Positions 5,598-54,136 of a stretch of DNA of 54,136 nt are shown here, in pieces. The stretch is taken from the NCBI RefSeq assembly GCF_903643035.1, contig NZ_CAHJWW010000001.1:1-54136 (forward strand), written 5' to 3'. The DNA is from Sphingomonas bacterium. Lineage in GTDB: Bacteria; Pseudomonadota; Alphaproteobacteria; Sphingomonadales; Sphingomonadaceae. A program made the translations under genes and the position numbers. The notes beneath the pieces are model-generated. The model made no database searches and was not told the DNA's origin. It saw only the letters and a program-made list of their open reading frames with translations. The first letter of the stretch is position 1. Every line of letters starts with the position of its first letter.

Positions 5598-7640
5598 TCA
5601 ATCCGCGAACTTCGGTCGGCCTCCAAAACCGGCTGCCGTGCGCAGCGCGTCAGGATCGAGAAGCTTGCCATCGAGCATGACGACGCGGGTGTGGCGGAGG
5701 TCCCCAAGGTGCGCCTCGGGATCACCCGCGATGAGCGCCAGGTCGGCAGTTTTCCCCACGGCGATCGAGCCAGTGTGCGCCTCCTGCCCGACGAGGCGGG
5801 CCGGCACAATCGTCGCGGCGGCCAGCGCCTCCGCCGGCGAGAAGTCCGCAGTTTGGTAGATTTCAAGTTCGCGGACGATTTCGATGCCGCTGCCGTCGGT
5901 GCCGGCGACGATGGGCACCCCGGCCTTGTGCATAGCACCGAGCAGTTCGACCATCTTCGCCCACGAGCGACGGTAGTCCGCACGTGTCAGATCCGGTGGC
6001 ACCTGAAAGCCGCCGGTCCTGAACCCGCGCTCGACCGCCGGCGGTAGGGTGCCGACGAACGGCGCGTAGGCCGGCGACAGCTCACCATTGTCGGGATAGT
6101 AGAGCCCCTCGAACGCGACCATGGTCGGATCGGAGTAGATGTGCTTCGCCGCCATCGTCGCCACCAATTTGCCGATCGGCGAGGCCGGGCCGATGTCGGT
6201 GTCCTTCATGTAGCGGCCGGGTGCCTCGAACCGGCCGATGCCGTTGTCCGTCGGCAGTACGCTCGCAGGCATACCCTCCATGGCAATCCAATTTATGTGG
6301 GTGACCTCGTCGTAGCCGTCGGCCACCGCCTCGCTCGTCCGGATGCCGTGCGGGATGTGGCCGTGGACGTGGAGGCCCTGTTTGTGCGCCTCGGCAATCG
6401 CTGCGGGCAGCCAGGCAGCGTCGAATGTCCCGTAGAACTTGACCCCGGTGAAGGCATTCGTCTTTGCCCGGTCGACCAGAGCGATCGCTTCGGCCTGGCT
6501 CGACGCTACGTTGGCCACCTGTGCCGTCAGCTTGCCCTTGCCGTCGATCAGCAACGAAGGATAGACGTGGGGAAAGAGCAGATCGCCCGCCGCTGCGCGC
6601 GTCCGCCGATCGATCGTCTTCAGGTCATCGTTACCAGGGTCGCGGACGCTGGTTACGCCGAGCGAGAGTTCCTGCGGACCGGTATAGTCGTCGCCGACGT
6701 GCATGTGGCAGTCCCACAGCCCAGGGACGAGGGTCATACCGGCACCGGCGATCACTTGCGCGCCGGCCGGCACCTTGATCGCAGCGGCCGGACCGACGGC
6801 GACGATCGTGCCATGGTCGACGACGACGGTCTGGTCGGTGCGGAAGGTGAGCGCGTCGGCGTCGAAGGTCTTGACGTGGGTAAACGCGACTGCGCCGGCG
6901 GGCACCTTCGTCAGGCTATGCGCGATCTTCGGTGCCTCCTTGGCCAGTGCGTCGGTCTGCGCCTTCTCCAGCTTCACCTGCTCGTCGGCGTAAGCGGCGG
7001 GTAGGAAACCAAGGCCGAAGGTCGCGGCAAAGGCTTTTCCGTCTGGCGTCGCCCAGATTGGGAAGGGCGTGTTGCCAATACCGGTCAGAACCCAGAGGTC
7101 GACCGTCCTTGCCGTCGCGCCCGTGCCGACGGTCAGGCTGTCGAGCTTGCGCGCCTGCGCCGTGCCGCCTGGCAGCAGCGCCAAGCGGTGCTCCGGGGCG
7201 GCGATCAGCGCCTCAACGAACCATAGGTTGGGCGAGAACAGTGCTCCCTGCGCCGTGTAGAAAGCCTTGCCAGCAAAGGTCGCGCTGCCGCCGTCGATCG
7301 GGCTCTTCCACGTCGCAGTGCCATCCGCGGTCCGGAAGGTTTCGGCGGCGTCGCCCGTCGGTGCGATGCCGCGGATGGTCATGGCCGTCGGAATGCCGTT
7401 CGCGCCGGAGGTGAGGCTGACATCGTCCTCCCACACCTGGCCGCGCAGGTTCATGCTCTCGCGCGCCATCTTCGTGCCGTCGGCGGCAGTCCAAACATAC
7501 GCGTCGCCGTGCTTACCGCCGGTCGACTCGATGACGAAGTGCTGCGCGTCAGACGGCGGCCGGGCGAGATCGGCGACCGGTGTCTGAGCGACGGCTGTGG
7601 TAGCAAGCAAGCCGGCGAAGAGCGTAGGCAACTTGGTCAT
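5598..7640 (-). CDS. Exported amidohydrolase family protein (imidazolonepropionase-like)
   Basis: A 680-residue protein with a short signal peptide (MTKLPTLFAGLLATTAVAQ). The first 300 residues are a beta-rich domain of unknown fold. The C-terminal half is a metal-dependent amidohydrolase barrel: the H-x-H pair is at His312 and His314 in GLWDCHMHVGDD, further metal histidines lie in GLHVHGHIPHG, and the aspartate is in VAGTDGSG. The small beta domain that flanks the barrel is completed at the end by IAVGKTADLALIAGDP. Family members split cyclic amides, peptides or related bonds; this export plus long N-terminal domain is common in sphingomonads and xanthomonads, and the substrate is unknown. 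The ATG at 7640 has AGAGGGG about eight bases upstream. A longer in-frame extension to 7778 would spoil the signal peptide. Confidence 0.9.
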   Translation of the reverse strand: MTKLPTLFAGLLATTAVAQTPVADLARPPSDAQHFVIESTGGKHGDAYVWTAADGTKMARESMNLRGQVWEDDVSLTSGANGIPTAMTIRGIAPTGDAAETFRTADGTATWKSPIDGGSATFAGKAFYTAQGALFSPNLWFVEALIAAPEHRLALLPGGTAQARKLDSLTVGTGATARTVDLWVLTGIGNTPFPIWATPDGKAFAATFGLGFLPAAYADEQVKLEKAQTDALAKEAPKIAHSLTKVPAGAVAFTHVKTFDADALTFRTDQTVVVDHGTIVAVGPAAAIKVPAGAQVIAGAGMTLVPGLWDCHMHVGDDYTGPQELSLGVTSVRDPGNDDLKTIDRRTRAAAGDLLFPHVYPSLLIDGKGKLTAQVANVASSQAEAIALVDRAKTNAFTGVKFYGTFDAAWLPAAIAEAHKQGLHVHGHIPHGIRTSEAVADGYDEVTHINWIAMEGMPASVLPTDNGIGRFEAPGRYMKDTDIGPASPIGKLVATMAAKHIYSDPTMVAFEGLYYPDNGELSPAYAPFVGTLPPAVERGFRTGGFQVPPDLTRADYRRSWAKMVELLGAMHKAGVPIVAGTDGSGIEIVRELEIYQTADFSPAEALAAATIVPARLVGQEAHTGSIAVGKTADLALIAGDPEAHLGDLRHTRVVMLDGKLLDPDALRTAAGFGGRPKFAD

Positions 7641-8264: not shown

Positions 8265-9096
8265 CGCCTGGGCGGCGGCGCGAGCTCGTCGCGCACGTCC
8301 AGGCGTCCCATGGCGTCAGCGAGCGGCGCGGCTGTCTCGCGCTCGGCGTCGACCGCTCGTCGGTGCGGTACGTGTCGCACAAGCCAGATCAGGCGCCGCT
8401 CAGGCTGCGCATCCACGATCTGGCGGCGGCACGGATGCGCTACGGCTACTTCAGGATCTACATCTTGCTGCGCAGGGAAGGATGGCTCGTGAACCACAAG
8501 CGCTCTACCGGCTGTACCGGGAAGATGGACTGAGCCTGCGGCTCAGGCGTCCTCGTCGGAACGTCAGCGCTGCCAACCGCGAGCGGCAGCCTGCGGCCTC
8601 GGCCGCCAACGAGATGTGGTCGATGGATTTCGTCTCGGACGCCTTGTTCGACGGCCGGCGGCTGCGGGCGTTGACGGTGGTCGATGCCTTCACCCGTGAG
8701 GCGCTAGCGATCGACGTCGACCAGGGCATCAAGGGCGAGCAGGTGGCGGCGGCGATGACGCGGATCGCATCGCTGCGCGGTGCACCCAAGACCATCCGCG
8801 TTGACAACGGTCCCGAGTTCATCTCGAAGGTGCTCGACCGCTGGGCTTACGAGAACGGCGTCACACTCGACTTCAGCCGTCCCGGCAAGCCGACCGACAA
8901 TGCGTTCGTGGAGTCGTTCAACGGCCGCCTGCGCGACGAATGCCTCAACGCTCACTGGTTCCTGTCGCTGGCGGATGCCCGGGCGAAGATCGAAGCCTGG
9001 CGGCGGGACTACAACGAAAGGCGTCCTCACACATCCCTTGGCTGGCTGACGCCGGTCGAATATGCTGCTGCCGCGGCCAAGATCGCCGCCGAATGA
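8258..9096 (+). pseudogene. IS3-family transposase OrfB, broken by a one-base deletion
   Basis: In the -1 frame after the slippery run the product reads [16 protein letters not shown], then [24 protein letters not shown], the usual OrfB N-terminus. Here it should continue [13 protein letters not shown], but a base is missing near 8495-8500: the frame goes out and stops at 8533. The rest lies in the next frame (8482-9096) with the integrase-core catalytic signatures [27 protein letters not shown] and the Asn/Glu region [17 protein letters not shown], so all three DDE residues are present. A single one-base deletion therefore inactivates an otherwise complete gene. The ATG at 8482 could only make the C-terminal catalytic part. 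Confidence 0.82.
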
Positions 9097-47274: not shown

Positions 47275-48480
47275 CTACCCGAGGCGCCGCGTGAGCCGCT
47301 CCTGGAGTAATGACCAGCGCCGTGGCTGTCGTCGCTTGACGGCAATCGCGAGCGCTTTCTTCGGACCGACGAGGACGAGGAGCTGCTTGGCCCGGGTGAC
47401 GGCGGTGTAGATCAGCTCGCGGCCAAGCATCGTGTAGGCCTGCATTGTAAGAGGGAGCACGACGACGGGGTATTCTGACCCCTGCGACTTGTGGATCGTG
47501 GTGGCGTAGGCCAGCTGGACGGCATCGAGCTCGCCGAAATCGAACACCGCTTCGGTCTGGCCGAACATCGCGGTCAGTTCGCCGTCGACGTGGTCGACAG
47601 CGGTGACCACTTCAAGGTCGCCATTGTAGAGGTCGCGCTCTCGGTCGTTGATGATGTGCATGATCTTGTCGCCGGGCCCGTAGCTCTGCCCGAATTTTTC
47701 GATCGCGGTATCGGTCGGCGGATTGAGCCGGGTCTGGAGGAGAATGTTGAGCGCGCGCGCGCCGGCACCGCCGCGCTGCATCGGGCTGAGGACCTGAATG
47801 TCGCGCGCTGGATCGAACCCGAACCGCCGTGGGATATGGCGTGCGACGAGATCGACAACGCGATCTGCAACATCGCCCGGATCGGTCGCATCGACGTAGA
47901 AGAAGTCGCCCTCGTCGCGCGCCGAGAGGTCGGGCATCGCGCCCTCGTTGATCCGGTGGGCGTTTATGATGATCTTGCTCGTCGCCGCCTGGCGGAACAC
48001 TTCGGTCAGGCGGACGACGGGAACAGCGCCGCTGGCGATGATGTCTTTGAGCACCTGGCCAAGCCCGACCGAGGGCAGCTGGTCGACATCGCCGACCATC
48101 AGCAACGCGGCAGCGGGCGGCAACGCTTTAAGCATCGCGTTCATCAGCGGCACGTCGACCATGCTGGTCTCGTCGACGACGAGCAGGTCGCACTCGAGCG
48201 GGTTGTCGGCGTTGCGCTTGAACCCGCCCTCATTCGGATCGGTCTCCAGCAGCCGGTGGAGCGTCATGGCACCGAGACCGGTAGACTCGGCCAGCCGCTT
48301 GGCCGCGCGCCCGGTCGGCGCGGCGAGCGCGATAGCCAGCTTCTTCGCCGCAAGGACCTTGAGGATCGAGTTGACCAACGCCGTCTTGCCGACACCAGGA
48401 CCACCGGTAATGACACAGACCTTCGACACCAGGGCGAGCCGCAGCGCTTCATCCTGGCTCGGCGACAGCTTGGCCTCGGT
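47275..48480 (-). pseudogene. RecD2-type helicase, C-terminal part, truncated by transposon
   Basis: The frame enters from the transposon boundary as [20 protein letters not shown] and continues with the whole SF1B motor: Walker A GGPGVGKT, motif Ia [14 protein letters not shown], Walker [20 protein letters not shown], the 2B/SH3 region, and the C-terminal motifs [12 protein letters not shown] and [15 protein letters not shown]. About 350 residues of a typical ATP-dependent RecD2-like helicase should precede this point. They are missing, and a TAA inside the transposon end (48484-48486) closes the frame upstream. An internal GTG at 48429 could start a shortened product, but the N-terminal domain is lost. 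The remaining motor is without lesions, so truncation appears recent. Confidence 0.8.
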
Positions 48481-48507
48481 GCATTATTGGGACACAGATT
48501 CACGGTA
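48479..48507 (+). repeat. Left terminal inverted repeat of the Tn3-like element
   Basis: Starts GTGCATTATTGGGACACAGA and ends TTCACGGTA. It matches the right end except at two positions. It lacks the GGGG beginning of many Tn3 elements. The junction with the RecD2 frame is at about 48480. Confidence 0.85.
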
Positions 48508-49249
48508 GGGGCGCAGCGTTCGGGCGACTCAGTTTGCCGATGATATCCCGCTCGAAGCAGACGATATCGCGCCGTCCCTCAATCAGCTCTGCGGCAGAGA
48601 GGTCCGCGGCGACAGCGCCATCGGTGAGCAGTATGCCGTGGTCGCACAGCATCGCCCAGCTGGCGAGATCGTGCAGAGCGGTGATCAACGTTAGGCCCTT
48701 TGCGACCAAGCCCGACAAGGCTGTCTTCAGGTCGTAGGCGCACACCGGATCGAGCCAGTTGAATGGTTCGTCCAAGATGACGGCCTGCCGAGGAGCTGAA
48801 GCAACGAACGCTGCATAGATCGCGATTCGCTGACGGTTTCCGCTCGACAGCGTGCTCATTCGCCGATCAAGCAGCGCCGCGATGCCGAGTGCTGCGCGAA
48901 GCGGAGCGAGATCACGGTCTTGATCCAGATGATGTTGCCTCCCCGCGAGCAGGCTCAACAGTTGGCCAGGAACCAAGCCGCCAGGCAGCAGCGCCGCCTC
49001 CGAAGCAAACCCGATTACTCGTGCTCGCGATGCGCGATCGCTCGTGACGTCAACGCCATTGATGGCAATGCCGCCGCTGGCGACCTCGATCCGACCCGCC
49101 ACCGCCCGGAGCAACGAAGTCTTGCCGCTCCCGTTCGCACCAACAATTCCGAGCCATTCCCCAGGGCGAGCTTCGAGTGTGACGCCGCGGATGGCAAGCG
49201 ACCTGCCTCGAACCACATCGACGCCTCGGACGTCGATCCGCACCGTCAA
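48500..49249 (-). CDS. ABC transporter ATP-binding protein (transposon cargo)
   Basis: About 249 residues with all the ATPase motifs: Walker A GANGSGKTS, Q-loop region VIGFASEAALLPGG, signature TLSSGNRQRIAI (S-S-G-N in place of the usual S-G-G-Q), Walker B AVILDEPFNWLDP and the switch histidine in ITALHDLASW. The architecture is that of ABC-2-type exporters. The start is taken as the TTG at 49249, where TTGA overlaps the stop of the permease gene; a GTG at 49243 is an alternative. The end of the gene lies inside the inner side of the transposon's left terminal repeat. Because it is co-translated with the adjoining permease, the two probably form one transporter; the substrate is unknown, and drug or peptide export is a guess. 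Confidence 0.85.
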   Translation of the reverse strand: MTVRIDVRGVDVVRGRSLAIRGVTLEARPGEWLGIVGANGSGKTSLLRAVAGRIEVASGGIAINGVDVTSDRASRARVIGFASEAALLPGGLVPGQLLSLLAGRQHHLDQDRDLAPLRAALGIAALLDRRMSTLSSGNRQRIAIYAAFVASAPRQAVILDEPFNWLDPVCAYDLKTALSGLVAKGLTLITALHDLASWAMLCDHGILLTDGAVAADLSAAELIEGRRDIVCFERDIIGKLSRPNAAPLP

Positions 49250-50346
49250 GGCACCGCCCACGTGGCAGCGCGGGCAGCCCGGTAGAGGTACGTGAGCCGG
49301 AGCACCAACCATCCAGCAGCCAGCGGCGGGAACGCCGAACCGAGCAGGGCGGTTGCGGACAGGTCCAGCTGGATCGCCAAGTTGGCCGCACGGCGCGATC
49401 GCGTTCGATAATACCATACCCTAGCGACGGCCACGCTGGCGAAAGCGAGCGCGACTATAAGGATGACAAGCAAATCCCCGCTCGGCATTCGGGTCAGTGC
49501 CAACTCGGCCAGAGTGACGACCACGCAGAAAATGCCGGCCACGATAAGATGATCGCCCGCACTGATCAGCGGGCCACGGCCGGTGAAAGCCGTAAACCGG
49601 ACAAGTTGATCATCGACCCGCGTCAGGAGGAGCAGGGCGCCGAGTGCGGGGACGCCCAGTGCAACGACCCCGGCGATGTTGCCAGCGGTCCGCGCTATTA
49701 CCGCTGCGAATACGGCCACGGCGAGCGCGAGAACGCTGGGAACGACGAAAATCGTCGATGTCTTCGCGGGCATCATCGTCTGGTGCCCGGCGATAATGAC
49801 GGCGAGATGGGGAGACCAAACCGAAGTGCCGGTCGTATTATGCCGCTGCGCCTCCGTCGCATGCACGCGCCTCGTCCGAAAAAGCCGACCGATTGCTGTT
49901 GTTGCACCGGGTATGACGGCACCGAAGAACAGCGCTGCTGCCACCGCCAACGGCCAGAGGGAAGGCGCTCGGCCATCCCACTCGACGACGCTGGCAACGA
50001 GGAGACTGGCGATCAAGACCGGAGTCAGGGCGACCGCCTTATAGGTCAGTCGGGTCGGGGGATCGAGCGCGTCGGCACACAAGGCCGATCCATCGACGAA
50101 ATCCCGAAGCCGGCTGCTCGCGGCCTGCATAGTGCCGGCCGCCGCGACTGCCATGATGACGAGTATGGAACCGGGCACCCAGTTCGGCCAGGTCGGCGCA
50201 TTCACAGGGTGCGAGTTGATTAGCCAGCCAAGTCCGATCGCGGCAAATGTACCCAGAAGCAGGCGATCCCGCCATGAACCGAGCACATCCGCAAGGCCGT
50301 TCTGGATCAGCAGCAGGTCATGGCATAGCAACCGAGTTGTCGTCAT
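49246..50346 (-). CDS. ABC transporter membrane protein (transposon cargo)
   Basis: A 366-residue membrane protein with about nine predicted hydrophobic helices, for example LLLGTFAAIGLGWLI, SILVIMAVAAAGTMQ, VLIASLLVASVVEW, LAVAAALFFGAVIPGATTAI, VPSVLALAVAVFAAVIA, VVALGVPALGALLLL and VILIVALAFASVAVARVW. I do not recognise the family, but pairing with an ATPase gene (four-base overlap downstream) makes it the permease of an ABC exporter. Its ATG overlaps the stop of the resolvase gene by four bases, so resolvase, permease and ATPase are translated in a chain. It has no signal for a distinct promoter. GC content is a little below that of the flanking host genes. Confidence 0.75.
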   Translation of the reverse strand: MTTTRLLCHDLLLIQNGLADVLGSWRDRLLLGTFAAIGLGWLINSHPVNAPTWPNWVPGSILVIMAVAAAGTMQAASSRLRDFVDGSALCADALDPPTRLTYKAVALTPVLIASLLVASVVEWDGRAPSLWPLAVAAALFFGAVIPGATTAIGRLFRTRRVHATEAQRHNTTGTSVWSPHLAVIIAGHQTMMPAKTSTIFVVPSVLALAVAVFAAVIARTAGNIAGVVALGVPALGALLLLTRVDDQLVRFTAFTGRGPLISAGDHLIVAGIFCVVVTLAELALTRMPSGDLLVILIVALAFASVAVARVWYYRTRSRRAANLAIQLDLSATALLGSAFPPLAAGWLVLRLTYLYRAARAATWAVP

Positions 50347-50936
50347 ATGGCGGCGACGGACCCCGACCGGTGCGACGCGACGATCCTCGATACCGTCGGC
50401 TGACTGACGTCATAGAGCCGCGCCATCTCGGCCGCCGATTTTCGGCCCGAAATCACGCTGTCGGCGATTTCAGCGCGCTTCGCTTCATCGAGTTTGCGCC
50501 GCCGCCCGCCGATCCGCCCTTCGGCCCTTGCTTGGGCAAGCCCTGCGCTGGTTCGCTCGCGGATCATTGCCCGCTCGAACTCAGCAAAGCTGCCGACCAT
50601 CTGCATCATCATGCGGCCAGCAGGCGTGGTCGTGTCGATGGCCTCGGTCAGCGACCGGAACCCCGCACCCGCCGCCTCGATGCGCTCGATCAGGTGCAGG
50701 AGATCCTGCAGCGAACGCGTCAGCCGGTCGAGCTTCCAGACGACAACGGTGTCGCCGGGCCGAAGCTGGCGGAGCATGTCGTGAAGGACCGGCCGATCCC
50801 ATCGCCCGCCGGACGCTGCTTCTTCAAACACACGCTGGCACCCGGCGACGGCAAGCGACCGCGCCTGCGCCGCGTTCGACTGTTCGTCACCCTTTGACAC
50901 CCGGGCGTAGCCGATCAGGTAGGATTCGACGGTCAC
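50343..50936 (-). CDS. tnpR: Tn3-type resolvase (serine recombinase)
   Basis: A 197-residue resolvase. The catalytic serine is Ser14 in YLIGYARVSKGDEQ. The conserved segments WKLDRLTRSLQDLLHLI and GSFAEFERAMIRERTSAGLA are present, and a C-terminal helix-turn-helix (KSAAEMARLYDVSQPTVSRIV) binds the res site. It resolves cointegrates made by the divergent transposase. The start codon faces tnpA across a gap of about 130 bases. Its stop overlaps the permease start (ATGA). Resolvases of this family also repress their own promoter by binding res, so the cargo genes may share that control. Confidence 0.9.
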   Translation of the reverse strand: MTVESYLIGYARVSKGDEQSNAAQARSLAVAGCQRVFEEAASGGRWDRPVLHDMLRQLRPGDTVVVWKLDRLTRSLQDLLHLIERIEAAGAGFRSLTEAIDTTTPAGRMMMQMVGSFAEFERAMIRERTSAGLAQARAEGRIGGRRRKLDEAKRAEIADSVISGRKSAAEMARLYDVSQPTVSRIVASHRSGSVAAI

Positions 50937-51065
50937 GGAAGCCTTTCACAAACGAGCGTCTGCGGAAGCCCCGCGGACCGAGGTCGCCGCAAGAGCGCGA
51001 GAACCTTTCACAATCCTCTTTCATGACGGTAGCGTAAGGCAAGAGGTTTTTGTTGGAGGTTGCCG
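50937..51065. other. Probable res/promoter region between tnpR and tnpA
   Basis: 129 bases between divergent start codons. The sequence CCTTTCACAA occurs twice in direct orientation (50942-50951 and 51004-51013), a candidate for resolvase subsites. The GGAGG before tnpA is at about 51056-51060. Both transposition genes must have their promoters here. Confidence 0.6.
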
Positions 51066-54014
51066 ATGCCGGCGCGTGTCCCGATGACCGAGCGCCAGCG
51101 TGGTGCGCTGCTGGCACTGCCGGCGAACGAAGATGAGGTCGTGCGCTACCATTCCCTCGGATCCGACGATCTCGCCGCGATTGCCGAAGCGCGGACCCCG
51201 GAGACTCGGCTCGGCTATGCGCTGCAGCTCTGCTGTCTGCGTTATCCCGGGCGGCACCTTCGCTACGGCGAGACACTGCCAGCGATCATGCTCGACCACA
51301 TCACCGAGCAGATCGGCGTTGATGCCGATATCCTCGCCGCGTTCGCCCGGCGTGGACCGACGCGGTACGAGCAGCTCGCGCTGATCAAGCGGCGGCACGG
51401 CTTTCGCGAGCTGACACATCCGCTTCGGAAAGAGATCGCCAGCGGTCTGGTCGACGCCGCCATCGGCTTGGTCGACGGTCGCATCCTGATCGAACGCCTG
51501 ATCGAAAGGCTGCGGGCTGAGCGCATCGTCATTCCCGGCGTCACGGTCGTCGAGCGCATGGCCGCCGAGGCGATGCACGCGGCCGACCGGCAAGTGATCG
51601 CCGACGTCGATCGACTGCTCTCTCCCCACCACCGGGAGCGCTTCGACGCGCTGCTGTCGGACAAGGAGCATTCGCGCAAAAGCCGCCTGTCGTGGCTCCG
51701 CGAGCCGGCGACGCGGGTCGGCAGCCGCTCGCTGGCCGACATCCTCGACAAGCTTGAACTGATGCGCGCGACCGGTGCCGTCGCGCTGACGGTGCCGGCG
51801 GCCTATCATCCCCGGCTTGCCCAGATGGCGCGGGAAGGTGTCCGCTACACCGCCCAGGCATTCCAGCAGATGGCCGCATCCCGGCGCTACGCGACCCTGA
51901 TCGCCACCGTGCGGGAACTCGAAGCGACATTGACCGATGCCGCCATTGCCATGTTCTGGTCACTCGTCGCGCGCGCCAATCTGCGGGCGCGCAAGCGGCT
52001 CGAGGCGACGATCGCCGCGTCGGCCGACGGCGGCCGCGAACGCCTGCTGCGGATCGCCGATGTGCTCGAGACGCTCGCCAAGGCCGCCCGCAGCGGCGGC
52101 GACGTCGTTGCCGCCGTGACATCGGTCGCTGCGCTGGCGACCATCGAAGCGGACGCCGCCCTCATCCGGCGGACGACCAAAGCCGGGCGGGTCGACGTCA
52201 TCGGCGAGCTCGCGCCGGAGTACCGCGTGTTCAAGCTGATCGGCAGTCGCTTTCTCGCCAGCTTCACCTTCGAGGGCCGGGCCTCGACCGCACCGCTCCG
52301 CGCCGCGCTTGACGTGCTGGTCGCGCTCGGCGGCGATCGGCGTAAGACATTGCCGACGACGCTCCCGCTCGGCCATATCCAGCGGCGCTGGCATCGGCAC
52401 GTCGTCAGCCGCGAAGGGGTCGACCGGACCTACTGGGAGCTGGCTACGTATTTTGCGCTCGCCGACGCGTTGGCTGCCGGTGACATCTGGGTGCCGACGT
52501 CGCGCCTGCACCGCTCGCTCGATGCGCTGATCACCGCGCCGGCATCTGCGCTGCCGGCGCGTGTCCCAGTTGCGCCGAGCCCTTCTGCGGACGAGTGGCT
52601 CGCCACCGCGTCGGCCAAGCTCGACGCCGGGCTGCTCGACCTCGCGCGAGGACTGTCGCGGAAGGGGAGCGAGCTGTTCGCCGGCGACAAGCTGCGCTTC
52701 CCCAAGGAGATCCGTGAAGTTGACGATGATCGCGCCAAGCAGCTCGCCCTTCGCTCCTATGGCCTCATGCCGACGATGCGGATCACCGATGTGCTATCGA
52801 GTGTCAGCCGTTGGACGGGGTTCATCGACAACTTCGGGCACGTCTCGACCGGGCTTCCGCCAACAGAGGAACGGACTTTCCTCGCCGCGCTGATCGCCGA
52901 GGCGACCAACCTGGGGCTGTCGCGCATGGCAGAGGTATGCGACGCGGGCTCGCGACGCGCGCTCCTCAGAATGCAGACGTGGCATATGCGCGAGGAGACG
53001 TTCCGCGCGGCGCTCGGCTGTCTGACCGACGCGATCCACGCCGAGCCGCTCGCCGAATGGTTCGGTGCGGCTGTCCGCGCTTCGGGTGACGGTCAGGCGT
53101 TCAACCTTGGCGGACCTGGTGAAGCCGGCGGCCAGGTCAACGCGCACTATGGCCGCGACCCAATCGTCAAAATCTACACGACGATCACCGATCGCTATGC
53201 GCCGCTGCATCAGACGGTGATTGCCGGCACTGCCGGCGAGGCGGTCCACACCCTCGATGGCCTGCTCGGCCACGACAGCAGCGTCGATATCCGCGCGCTC
53301 TCCGTCGACGGCGGCGGTGTCTCCGATATCATCTTCGCGGTCATGCACCTGCTCGGCATCGCGTTCGAGCCGCGCATCCCGCGCCTGTCGGATCGCCGCC
53401 TCTACGCATTCGAGCCCCGCGCCCGCTACGGGCGGCTCGCCCCGCTGTTCGGTCAGCGGCTCGATACCGGCGTGATCCGCACACATTGGGATGAGATCGG
53501 TCCGATCGTCACGGCAATGCGAAGCCGGACCGTCACGCCTTCGGTGATCCTCAAGAAGCTGTCTGCTTACCGGCAGCAGAACGGAGTCGCTGCCGCCCTC
53601 CGCGAGATCGGCCGTGTCGAGCGGACCTTGTTCACCCTGCGATGGTTCAACGACCCCGCGCTGCGCCGTCTCGTAACCGGCGAACTCAACAAGGGAGAGG
53701 CGCGTAACAGCCTCGCGCGGGCCGTCGCGTTCCACCGGCTCGGCCGCTTCCGCGATCGCGGGCACGAGAACCAGCAAACCCGCGCCGCCGCGCTCAACCT
53801 GGTCACCGCCGCCATCATCCTGTTCAACTGCCGCTACCTCGGCCGAGCGCTTGGCGAAATGCGGAGCCGCGGAGTCTTAATCGACGAGTCCTTGATCCCG
53901 CAGCTCTCACCGCTTGGCTGGGATCACATCAATCTGACCGGCGATTATGTCTGGTCAGACGCGATGGCCCTCGACAGCGATGGCTTCATGCCTCTCCGGC
54001 AAGCCGTGAATTAA
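51066..54014 (+). CDS. tnpA: Tn3-family transposase
   Basis: A 982-residue transposase. The N-terminal domain (PMTERQRGALLALPANEDEV, RLGYALQLCCLRYPGRHL) is the DUF4158 DNA-binding part, and the C-terminal two thirds is the DDE_Tnp_Tn3 domain. Signature segments include WTGFIDNFGHVSTGLPPTEERTFLAALIAEATNLGLSRMAE, RALSVDGGGVSDIIFAVMHLLG and the terminal INLTGDYVWSDAM, with the catalytic-region aspartates in place. The length is normal and no lesion was seen, so it may be active. GGAGG lies about six bases before the ATG at 51066; a TTG at 51060 is unlikely. The stop is 12 bases from the right terminal repeat. Confidence 0.95.
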   Translation: MPARVPMTERQRGALLALPANEDEVVRYHSLGSDDLAAIAEARTPETRLGYALQLCCLRYPGRHLRYGETLPAIMLDHITEQIGVDADILAAFARRGPTRYEQLALIKRRHGFRELTHPLRKEIASGLVDAAIGLVDGRILIERLIERLRAERIVIPGVTVVERMAAEAMHAADRQVIADVDRLLSPHHRERFDALLSDKEHSRKSRLSWLREPATRVGSRSLADILDKLELMRATGAVALTVPAAYHPRLAQMAREGVRYTAQAFQQMAASRRYATLIATVRELEATLTDAAIAMFWSLVARANLRARKRLEATIAASADGGRERLLRIADVLETLAKAARSGGDVVAAVTSVAALATIEADAALIRRTTKAGRVDVIGELAPEYRVFKLIGSRFLASFTFEGRASTAPLRAALDVLVALGGDRRKTLPTTLPLGHIQRRWHRHVVSREGVDRTYWELATYFALADALAAGDIWVPTSRLHRSLDALITAPASALPARVPVAPSPSADEWLATASAKLDAGLLDLARGLSRKGSELFAGDKLRFPKEIREVDDDRAKQLALRSYGLMPTMRITDVLSSVSRWTGFIDNFGHVSTGLPPTEERTFLAALIAEATNLGLSRMAEVCDAGSRRALLRMQTWHMREETFRAALGCLTDAIHAEPLAEWFGAAVRASGDGQAFNLGGPGEAGGQVNAHYGRDPIVKIYTTITDRYAPLHQTVIAGTAGEAVHTLDGLLGHDSSVDIRALSVDGGGVSDIIFAVMHLLGIAFEPRIPRLSDRRLYAFEPRARYGRLAPLFGQRLDTGVIRTHWDEIGPIVTAMRSRTVTPSVILKKLSAYRQQNGVAAALREIGRVERTLFTLRWFNDPALRRLVTGELNKGEARNSLARAVAFHRLGRFRDRGHENQQTRAAALNLVTAAIILFNCRYLGRALGEMRSRGVLIDESLIPQLSPLGWDHINLTGDYVWSDAMALDSDGFMPLRQAVN

Positions 54015-54025
54015 CCAAATCGGCT

Positions 54026-54054
54026 TACCGTATATCTGTGTCCCAATAATGCAC
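54026..54054 (-). repeat. Right terminal inverted repeat of the Tn3-like element
   Basis: The complement starts GTGCATTATTGGGACACAGA and ends TATACGGTA, differing from the left end at two adjacent positions. The last 82 bases of the window, beyond this repeat, carry no recognisable gene and do not continue the truncated RecD2 frame. Confidence 0.85.
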
Positions 54055-54136
54055 AGGGGCGTCGAAGGCTGCATCCAAGTGAATAGTCGAGCTGTTGCCG
54101 TAAATTGCTACCCGCTTAGTGAGCTGAATATGCGAT

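Follow-up and report, generated by a model that had tools for sequence, protein, structure and literature searches.

Anatomy of the element

The stretch of DNA analysed here (the window) is a complete contig of 54,136 bases from a 2.85 Mb assembly. Near its right end, at about 48472–54061, lies a Tn3-family transposon that carries a two-gene ABC transporter as a passenger, placed after the 3′ end of tnpR and before the left inverted repeat. The features of the element and its left neighbour are as follows.

47275–48477, minus strand: P-loop helicase gene, an open reading frame translated in frame up to the left inverted repeat and cut there
48472–48509, plus strand: left inverted repeat (IRL), about 36–38 bp, of the GGCC-start type common to the subgroup; ends placed by eye from comparison with relatives
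48500–49249, minus strand: ABC ATPase, 249 aa, TTG start overlapping the permease stop; from translation and Pfam ABC_tran (2.8e-22)
49246–50346, minus strand: permease, 366 aa, ATG start overlapping the tnpR stop (ATGA); from translation
50343–50936, minus strand: tnpR, serine resolvase, 197 aa, GTG start; from translation and Pfam Resolvase (4.4e-45)
50937–51065, no strand assigned: intergenic region, putative res and promoters, with two TTGTGAAAG-type motifs kept in an alignment of ten sequences including the window
51066–54014, plus strand: tnpA, Tn3 transposase, 982 aa, divergent from tnpR; from translation and NCBIfam transpos_Tn3 (892 bits)
54024–54061, minus strand: right inverted repeat (IRR); from repeat search and comparison with relatives

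The frames of tnpR, permease and ATPase are all open on one strand, and neighbours overlap by 4 nt: ATGA at 50343–50346 holds the tnpR stop and the permease start, and TTGA at 49246–49249 holds the permease stop and the ATPase start. The ATPase stop codon (48500–48502) lies inside the left inverted repeat. Translation and coordinates thus bear out both overlaps described in the initial annotation, which had also presented resolvase, permease and ATPase, correctly, as a single unit of overlapping frames behind an intergenic region that resembles res. The bounding inverted repeats that it reported are real as well; a repeat search gave arms at 48473–48507 and 54026–54060 (35 nt, 89% complementary), and comparison with relatives, by eye, moved the ends of the element about 7 bp outwards, to 48472 and 54061. 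The Pfam scores for Resolvase, ABC_tran and DDE_Tnp_Tn3 are all well over the cut-offs. The transposase is of the Tn3-type DDE class (PF01526, DDE_Tnp_Tn3, 1e-121; NF033527, 892 bits against a cut-off of 500), and the terminal inverted repeats of about 38 bp are those of the Tn3 family.

The insertion site is less regular than the element. No 5-bp target-site duplication surrounds it (AGCTT vs. TCGAA), so that the mark of a simple, undisturbed Tn3 insertion is absent at this site. The contig ends 75 bp past the right repeat (54062–54136), and this right flank has a G+C content of 48%, vs. 66%. The 5′ part of the interrupted helicase gene, which may be RecD2-like by motif, is not visible beyond IRR within the 75-bp flank. 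The cut helicase and the lower G+C of the right flank, with no visible continuation of the gene, suggest either a rearrangement at the site or an uncertain contig end. We regard it as a real possibility, although somewhat below an even one, that the site was rearranged or that the contig end is chimeric, in which case the genomic setting would be false although the element is real; the state of the source assembly (339 contigs, 78% complete) points the same way as the flanks. However, the element itself is intact and the same anatomy is repeated in other genomes. The duplication is also absent in five of the ten relatives in which both repeats were found (L005, L007, L008, L190 and L199), whereas the other five (L017, L193, L196, L197 and L202) have 5-bp duplications, all read by eye.

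The ABC pair in other genomes

Of 295 genomes in the same genus, 39, counting that of the window, contain the gene according to a permease profile; one of these (G747), whose match is short and contains a stop, was left out. The pair was then read at 41 loci of 7.5–19 kb, covering the other 38 genomes, a genome from another genus in the family and two genome-contig loci; L053 and L054 (the weak matches G028 and G060), for which a blastp check gave no match, were left out. Both genes were located in 38 of the 41 loci. Tn3 genes, judged by using two kinds of Tn3 transposase and resolvase as queries, lie near the pair in only three: the window, L045 and L165. For the permease alone, a pattern search of genome and viral contigs and a tblastn search of plasmids found no relative, and the ATPase had none in plasmids at E 1e-30. 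A profile scan of genome contigs with the ATPase alignment, of which the best 80 loci were kept, gave two close loci, L055 (an Acetobacter ATPase, 40% identical, whose frame has an unclassified upstream part) and L056 (both genes); when the window's TnpR and TnpA were used as blastp queries, no Tn3 genes turned up at any of these 80. The Acetobacter reading frame at L055 (5801–7675) encodes 624 aa, with an ATPase of this kind at its end and a hydrophobic N-terminal part, and is perhaps a fused permease–ATPase. Shared neighbours give no functional hint: among the 30 clusters listed, none outside the pair occurs in more than 7 of 37 loci.

With start codons picked by a script, permease and ATPase overlap by 4 nt at 33 of the 38 loci where both genes were located; L041, L056, L165, L178 and L182 deviate. 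This overlap is thus an old property of the pair.

What lies behind tnpR in the window's subgroup

At a threshold of E 1e-70, 64 plasmid records contain a TnpR similar to that of the window. Nineteen subgroup loci including the window, picked for variety or found in earlier homologue searches, were read, and in 11 of them, the window among these, a reading frame of at least 150 aa overlaps the tnpR stop by 4 nt. The ABC pair is absent behind tnpR in all 18 relatives, whereas 10 of the 18 have another reading frame with the same overlap, mostly one protein of about 450 aa. The initial annotation had held that the coupling would be accidental if homologous transposons lacked the ABC genes at this point. 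That expectation is half borne out, since the relatives do lack the pair but many of them carry other chained genes; on the chaining of the genes the annotation was right, but not in taking this to be unusual in these elements.

Homologues of the ~450-aa protein (340–455 aa) occur in 11 of the 18 relatives, nine with the 4-nt overlap and two with overlaps of 11 or 17 nt. Nine of the 11 overlaps in the subgroup therefore belong to one cargo family and are not independent. This protein, the commonest gene behind tnpR in the subgroup (L005 4620–5975, L196 5091–6452, L202 5103–6461 and eight more), has no credible Pfam or PADLOC match. L017 has a META-domain protein 48 bases behind tnpR, and a homologue of this protein stands at the 4-nt overlap in L191. 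L195 and L201 have no such reading frame, and L006, L007 and L190 have others of 112–206 aa. In L005, a MOSC-domain gene (6562–7104) lies between tnpA and tnpR and abuts tnpR.

Homology of TnpR to the window's protein ends at residue 190 of 197 in 14 of the 18 relatives. The cargo-free L201 is among them, and variation of the TnpR tail is thus not tied to cargo alone. DNA identity with L005, L196 and L202 is 53–60% in the 150-base segment that holds the tnpR end and 28–36% in the next one. The stretch from the tnpR end to the left repeat is read here as a putative exchangeable cargo slot.

The same pair in a second Tn3 lineage

The initial annotation proposed a search for the same pair directly behind tnpR elsewhere, and this succeeded in a second Tn3 lineage, in which two genomes of the same genus carry it (L045 and L165). 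In L045, ATPase, permease and tnpR lie on one strand with an ATGA overlap at both joints and a divergent tnpA, whose product is 36.6–36.9% identical to the window's TnpA. The L165 element is 79% identical to that of L045 over 5497 bp of DNA and keeps the tnpR–permease ATGA. L165 (6706–12127) is a decaying copy, with frameshifts in tnpA and tnpR, a stop at codon 17 of the ATPase and a permease that is still open, which shows that the unit is dispensable there. Its repeats of 38 bp have the same six bases on both sides, and the left one contains the ATPase stop codon; L045 has a similar but more diverged left end (both by eye).

The three Tn3-borne ATPases do not group together in a tree of 35 ATPase sequences. 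The starred branches (97/95 and 99/97) force at least two changes and separate the window from L045 and L165, while the window's own branch is long and its exact place unsure. Because the tree parts the window from the second lineage, the pair was probably captured twice, and two separate captures are the simplest reading of these sequences. One old capture followed by many losses is possible, but two captures are simpler.

Chromosomal relatives of the second-lineage pair indicate what was captured. L166 (87.3%), L168 (79.5%) and L046 (73.2%) match L045 only from about 6732–6736 to 8424–8425, i.e., from codon 3 of the permease to a few codons before the ATPase stop, and L038 (72.3%) matches over a shorter stretch that starts inside the permease. 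The permease frames of L166 and L168 could start about 14 codons further upstream. Since chromosomal homology stops at permease codon 3, the native leader, with any promoter in it, is missing from the L045/L165 element, which makes the tnpR transcript the likely source of ABC expression there. For the window's own pair, which has no close donor for comparison, the same trimming of the leader would follow by analogy.

Relatives of L045 hold other genes at this position. L203 and L210 have TnpA proteins 89.5% identical to that of L045 and cargo unrelated to that of L045 and to each other's; DNA identity with L045 collapses in the 150-base segment that holds the tnpR stop. A 373-aa protein is chained by a 4-nt overlap in L210 and L216 (85.5% identical to each other), and a 173-aa kinase-like protein in L208 and L213 (82% identical). 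At L203 and L206, only reading frames of 77 and 65 aa, respectively, stand at the tnpR overlap. In total, a chained frame of at least 150 aa is present in 5 of 17 second-lineage loci (3 of 10, plus L213 and L216 among seven more) and absent from 12; L165, whose tnpR is broken, was left out of this count. Chaining is thus less common in this lineage than in the window's subgroup (11/19).

Similar tnpR genes also occur on different backbones. L204 and L045 share 91.5% identity in TnpR and 46% in TnpA, with tnpA in the other relative orientation; these are protein identities, because the tnpA part of the L204 DNA comparison is meaningless with tnpA reversed. Between L045 and L165, identity in 150-base segments is 55–78% in tnpA and 84–92% from the middle of tnpR onwards, except for one segment at 72% and the last. 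Both patterns fit an exchange of tnpR together with its cargo near res. However, the L045–L165 identity rises gradually through tnpR, and no sharp crossover is therefore shown. In L213 (110–5169; CP000630.1), tniA, tniB and tniQ precede a resolvase gene whose product is 80% identical to the L045 resolvase, and the kinase-like gene with its 4-nt overlap comes next, i.e., the same resolvase–cargo unit stands behind another kind of transposition module.

Overlaps, promoters and the source of expression

A single 4-nt overlap is ordinary and proves little. Of 599 rough genes, 77 show an overlap of this length onto a frame of at least 150 aa; by set, the remainder of the window contributes 5 of 31, the ABC-pair loci 52 of 377 and the plasmid loci 20 of 191. 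Rough genes are the longest non-overlapping reading frames, so spurious frames are counted, and the sets include the pair itself and some transposons. Because a single overlap is this common, it is recurrence that counts as evidence. The recurrence of the permease/ATPase overlap, and of the tnpR/permease ATGA in the second Tn3 lineage, exceeds chance, as judged without a formal probability.

The 129-bp region between tnpA and tnpR, with its conserved motifs, is plausibly the res site. A scan for sigma-70-like promoters over 48400–51200, res region included, found none (0.3 expected), and a single terminator-like site was found in the same interval, fewer than shuffled sequences give (1.9). The scan evidently misses promoters that the element must have; since it is blank even over the res region, its silence about promoters of the ABC genes means little. 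The tnpR genes of Tn3 elements are autoregulated. The regulatory link to tnpR proposed below rests on the precedent of Tn5393, in which, according to a review (PMC9330008), a tnpR promoter located in res drives strA–strB and is repressed by TnpR. This precedent, together with the chained frames in 11 of 19 subgroup loci, contradicts for these elements the premise of the initial annotation that Tn3 cargo normally lies apart from tnpR. A study of the Tn3 family (mBio 2020, PMC7157771) does share this premise for passengers in general: those other than toxin–antitoxin modules are described there as generally away from the resolution and transposition genes.

Directly observed are the anatomy, the fact that it recurs in two Tn3 lineages and, for the second of these, the absence of the native leader. 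The explanation that we favour, and consider fairly probable, is that the ABC pair is a tnpR-linked passenger, captured almost as bare coding sequence and both read and repressed together with tnpR. The tnpR stop would supply the ATGA context for the permease start, and the inverted repeat would supply the ATPase stop codon. One transcript from the res region would cover tnpR, permease and ATPase, with the permease and then the ATPase translated by termination–reinitiation. Repression by TnpR would make pump synthesis follow tnpR expression, low at steady state, with a burst on entry into a new cell. Cargo would be exchanged at the 3′ end of tnpR, and tnpR with its cargo may move as a unit between backbones near res. 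Counting against this explanation, the pair usually lies outside Tn3 elements (38 of 41 loci).

The same count favours the main alternative, that the ABC pair, a passenger like any other, is transcribed from a promoter of its own within tnpR and that the overlap is packing without regulatory meaning: as 38 of the 41 loci show no Tn3 genes nearby, the pair can exist without tnpR, and 4-nt overlaps are as common among rough genes as stated above. However, the native leader is absent from the L045/L165 element, and four more kinds of cargo (the ~450-aa protein, the META-domain relative, the 373-aa protein and the kinase-like protein) stand at the same overlap in two lineages. We consider an independent promoter rather unlikely.

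Identity and function of the transporter

The ATPase carries Walker A, signature, Walker B and H-loop motifs (GANGSGKT, SSGNRQR, VILDEP and ALHD, read by eye) and matches ABC_tran at 80 bits, against a cut-off of 25. Its best NCBIfam matches are the ATPases of F420-0 and heme importers, far below cut-off. By sequence it also matches Rv1218c (E 2.8e-19), which is one of 545 chains matched. A defence role for the ATPase was considered and set aside, as its PADLOC matches (best mad3, 1.9e-20) look like generic ATPase matches.

The window's permease has no match in Pfam, NCBIfam or PADLOC. Seventeen members of its family gave stray weak Pfam and NCBIfam matches only, none of them to an ABC permease, the best being DUF6256 (0.006, two members) and a hypothetical-protein model (0.0087, one member), and no family member was found among PDB sequences. 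The structure model of the window's permease is of low quality (pLDDT 72), and its matches to MATE proteins and to Rv1217c are of similar strength. For the L045 permease, a model built from 35 sequences is better (pLDDT 89), with about ten membrane-length helices counted from the model. Its best whole-length fold match is Rv1217c, with four entries at Z 9.5–11.1 over 289–300 residues; the top match (Z 11.1, 300 residues, rmsd 5.2) is below the tool's safe level for helical bundles. The next matches are designed helical proteins (Z 9.6 and 8.9, about 106–107 residues) and a MATE protein (Z 7.9 over 232 residues), and Foldseek returned no significant match for this model. The match at Z 11 may reflect a common helical arrangement.

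Based on the gene content and this weak fold match, the pair is likely an exporter. That the two proteins form an importer or a non-transport ABC system is, in our judgement, unlikely: the importer ATPases among the best NCBIfam matches, distant as they are, and the merely stray Pfam and NCBIfam matches of the permease family would suit it, but the element contains no gene for a substrate-binding protein, the permease model is best matched over its whole length by the efflux permease Rv1217c, and the ATPase resembles Rv1218c, albeit among hundreds of others.

Selection was compared between L045 and L165. The dN/dS values are 0.28 for the permease, 0.16 for the ATPase (stop codon skipped), 0.07 for the TnpR part and 0.33 for the TnpA part, with dS values of 0.32, 0.32, 0.52 and 0.81, respectively. 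By these estimates, the ABC genes, TnpR and TnpA have all been constrained for much of the L045–L165 divergence, the ABC genes not specially so. That the pump serves the transposon itself, e.g., by exporting something needed or toxic in transposition, which would link transposition state and export functionally, is very improbable: the same pair does occur in two Tn3 lineages with its genes under constraint, but in relatives of the same transposon the slot is filled by unrelated proteins, the pair is mostly found outside Tn3 elements and the recurrence may only reflect hosts common to both elements.

Implications

Returning to the tnpR-linked passenger, a start in the tnpR stop combined with an end in the inverted repeat would be a recurrent architecture that can be searched for in any Tn3 collection. 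Because tnpR is autoregulated, cargo of this kind could be active chiefly when the element reaches a new host, which would alter the interpretation of passenger genes of unknown function. A more far-reaching proposal, which we put forward tentatively and hold to be doubtful, is that at least two Tn3 lineages keep a dedicated capture slot from the tnpR stop to the repeat. Promoterless coding sequences, given their start context by the tnpR stop and terminated by the repeat, would there come under resolvase autoregulation, making the exporter an arrival-time function. If so, the cargo would be silent once TnpR has accumulated and expressed in a burst when the element enters a new cell.

Comparison with known systems

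As far as was searched, the cargo, the fit of start in stop and stop in repeat, and the recurrence in two lineages are new, whereas a precedent for resolvase-linked passengers is known. The arrangement is absent from the listed titles and opening parts of abstracts on Tn3 with ABC transporters, tnpR and Sphingomonas, from those on translational coupling, and from those on passenger operons, Sphingomonadaceae Tn3 cargo and res shuffling, in a literature that mostly excludes subscription journals.

The nearest characterised transporter is Rv1217c–Rv1218c (PDB 8k1m–8k1p), which gives the best whole-length fold match to the permease model and matches the ATPase by sequence. However, Rv1217c shares only 7–9% sequence identity with the permease and has 509–530 residues, vs. 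327, and kinship between the two is only tentative, given that Foldseek gave no significant match.

Among the transposons, the closest are the subgroup elements L196, L199, L202, L008 and L005, whose hosts are Sphingobium, Sphingomonas, Polymorphobacter and rhizobia. These have TnpR proteins 81–88% identical to the window's, the same terminal repeats and the slot behind tnpR, but the slot holds the ~450-aa protein rather than the ABC pair.

The toxin–antitoxin modules of the Tn3 family are, according to the mBio 2020 study (PMC7157771), repeatedly acquired and exchanged by recombination at res. Like the window's pair, they are passengers placed where res promoters could express them; they adjoin res and, in divergent elements, lie between tnpR and tnpA and read towards tnpA (PMC7157771). 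In contrast, the window's cargo lies behind tnpR and is no toxin–antitoxin pair.

Tn5393 is similar to the window's element in that its passengers lie downstream of tnpR on the same strand. L045 TnpR shares 70.9% identity with the L211 resolvase, which precedes IS1133 and strA–strB; we take this L211 stretch to be a copy of Tn5393, found there without tnpA. The L211 resolvase is 51% identical to the window's TnpR over 133 residues. The elements differ in cargo and in junction: the window carries an ABC transporter whose start overlaps the tnpR stop, whereas L211 has IS1133 between tnpR and strA. The window's element would carry the principle of Tn5393, in which the resolvase promoter serves the passengers, over to a membrane pump with a permease family unnamed in Pfam and NCBIfam.
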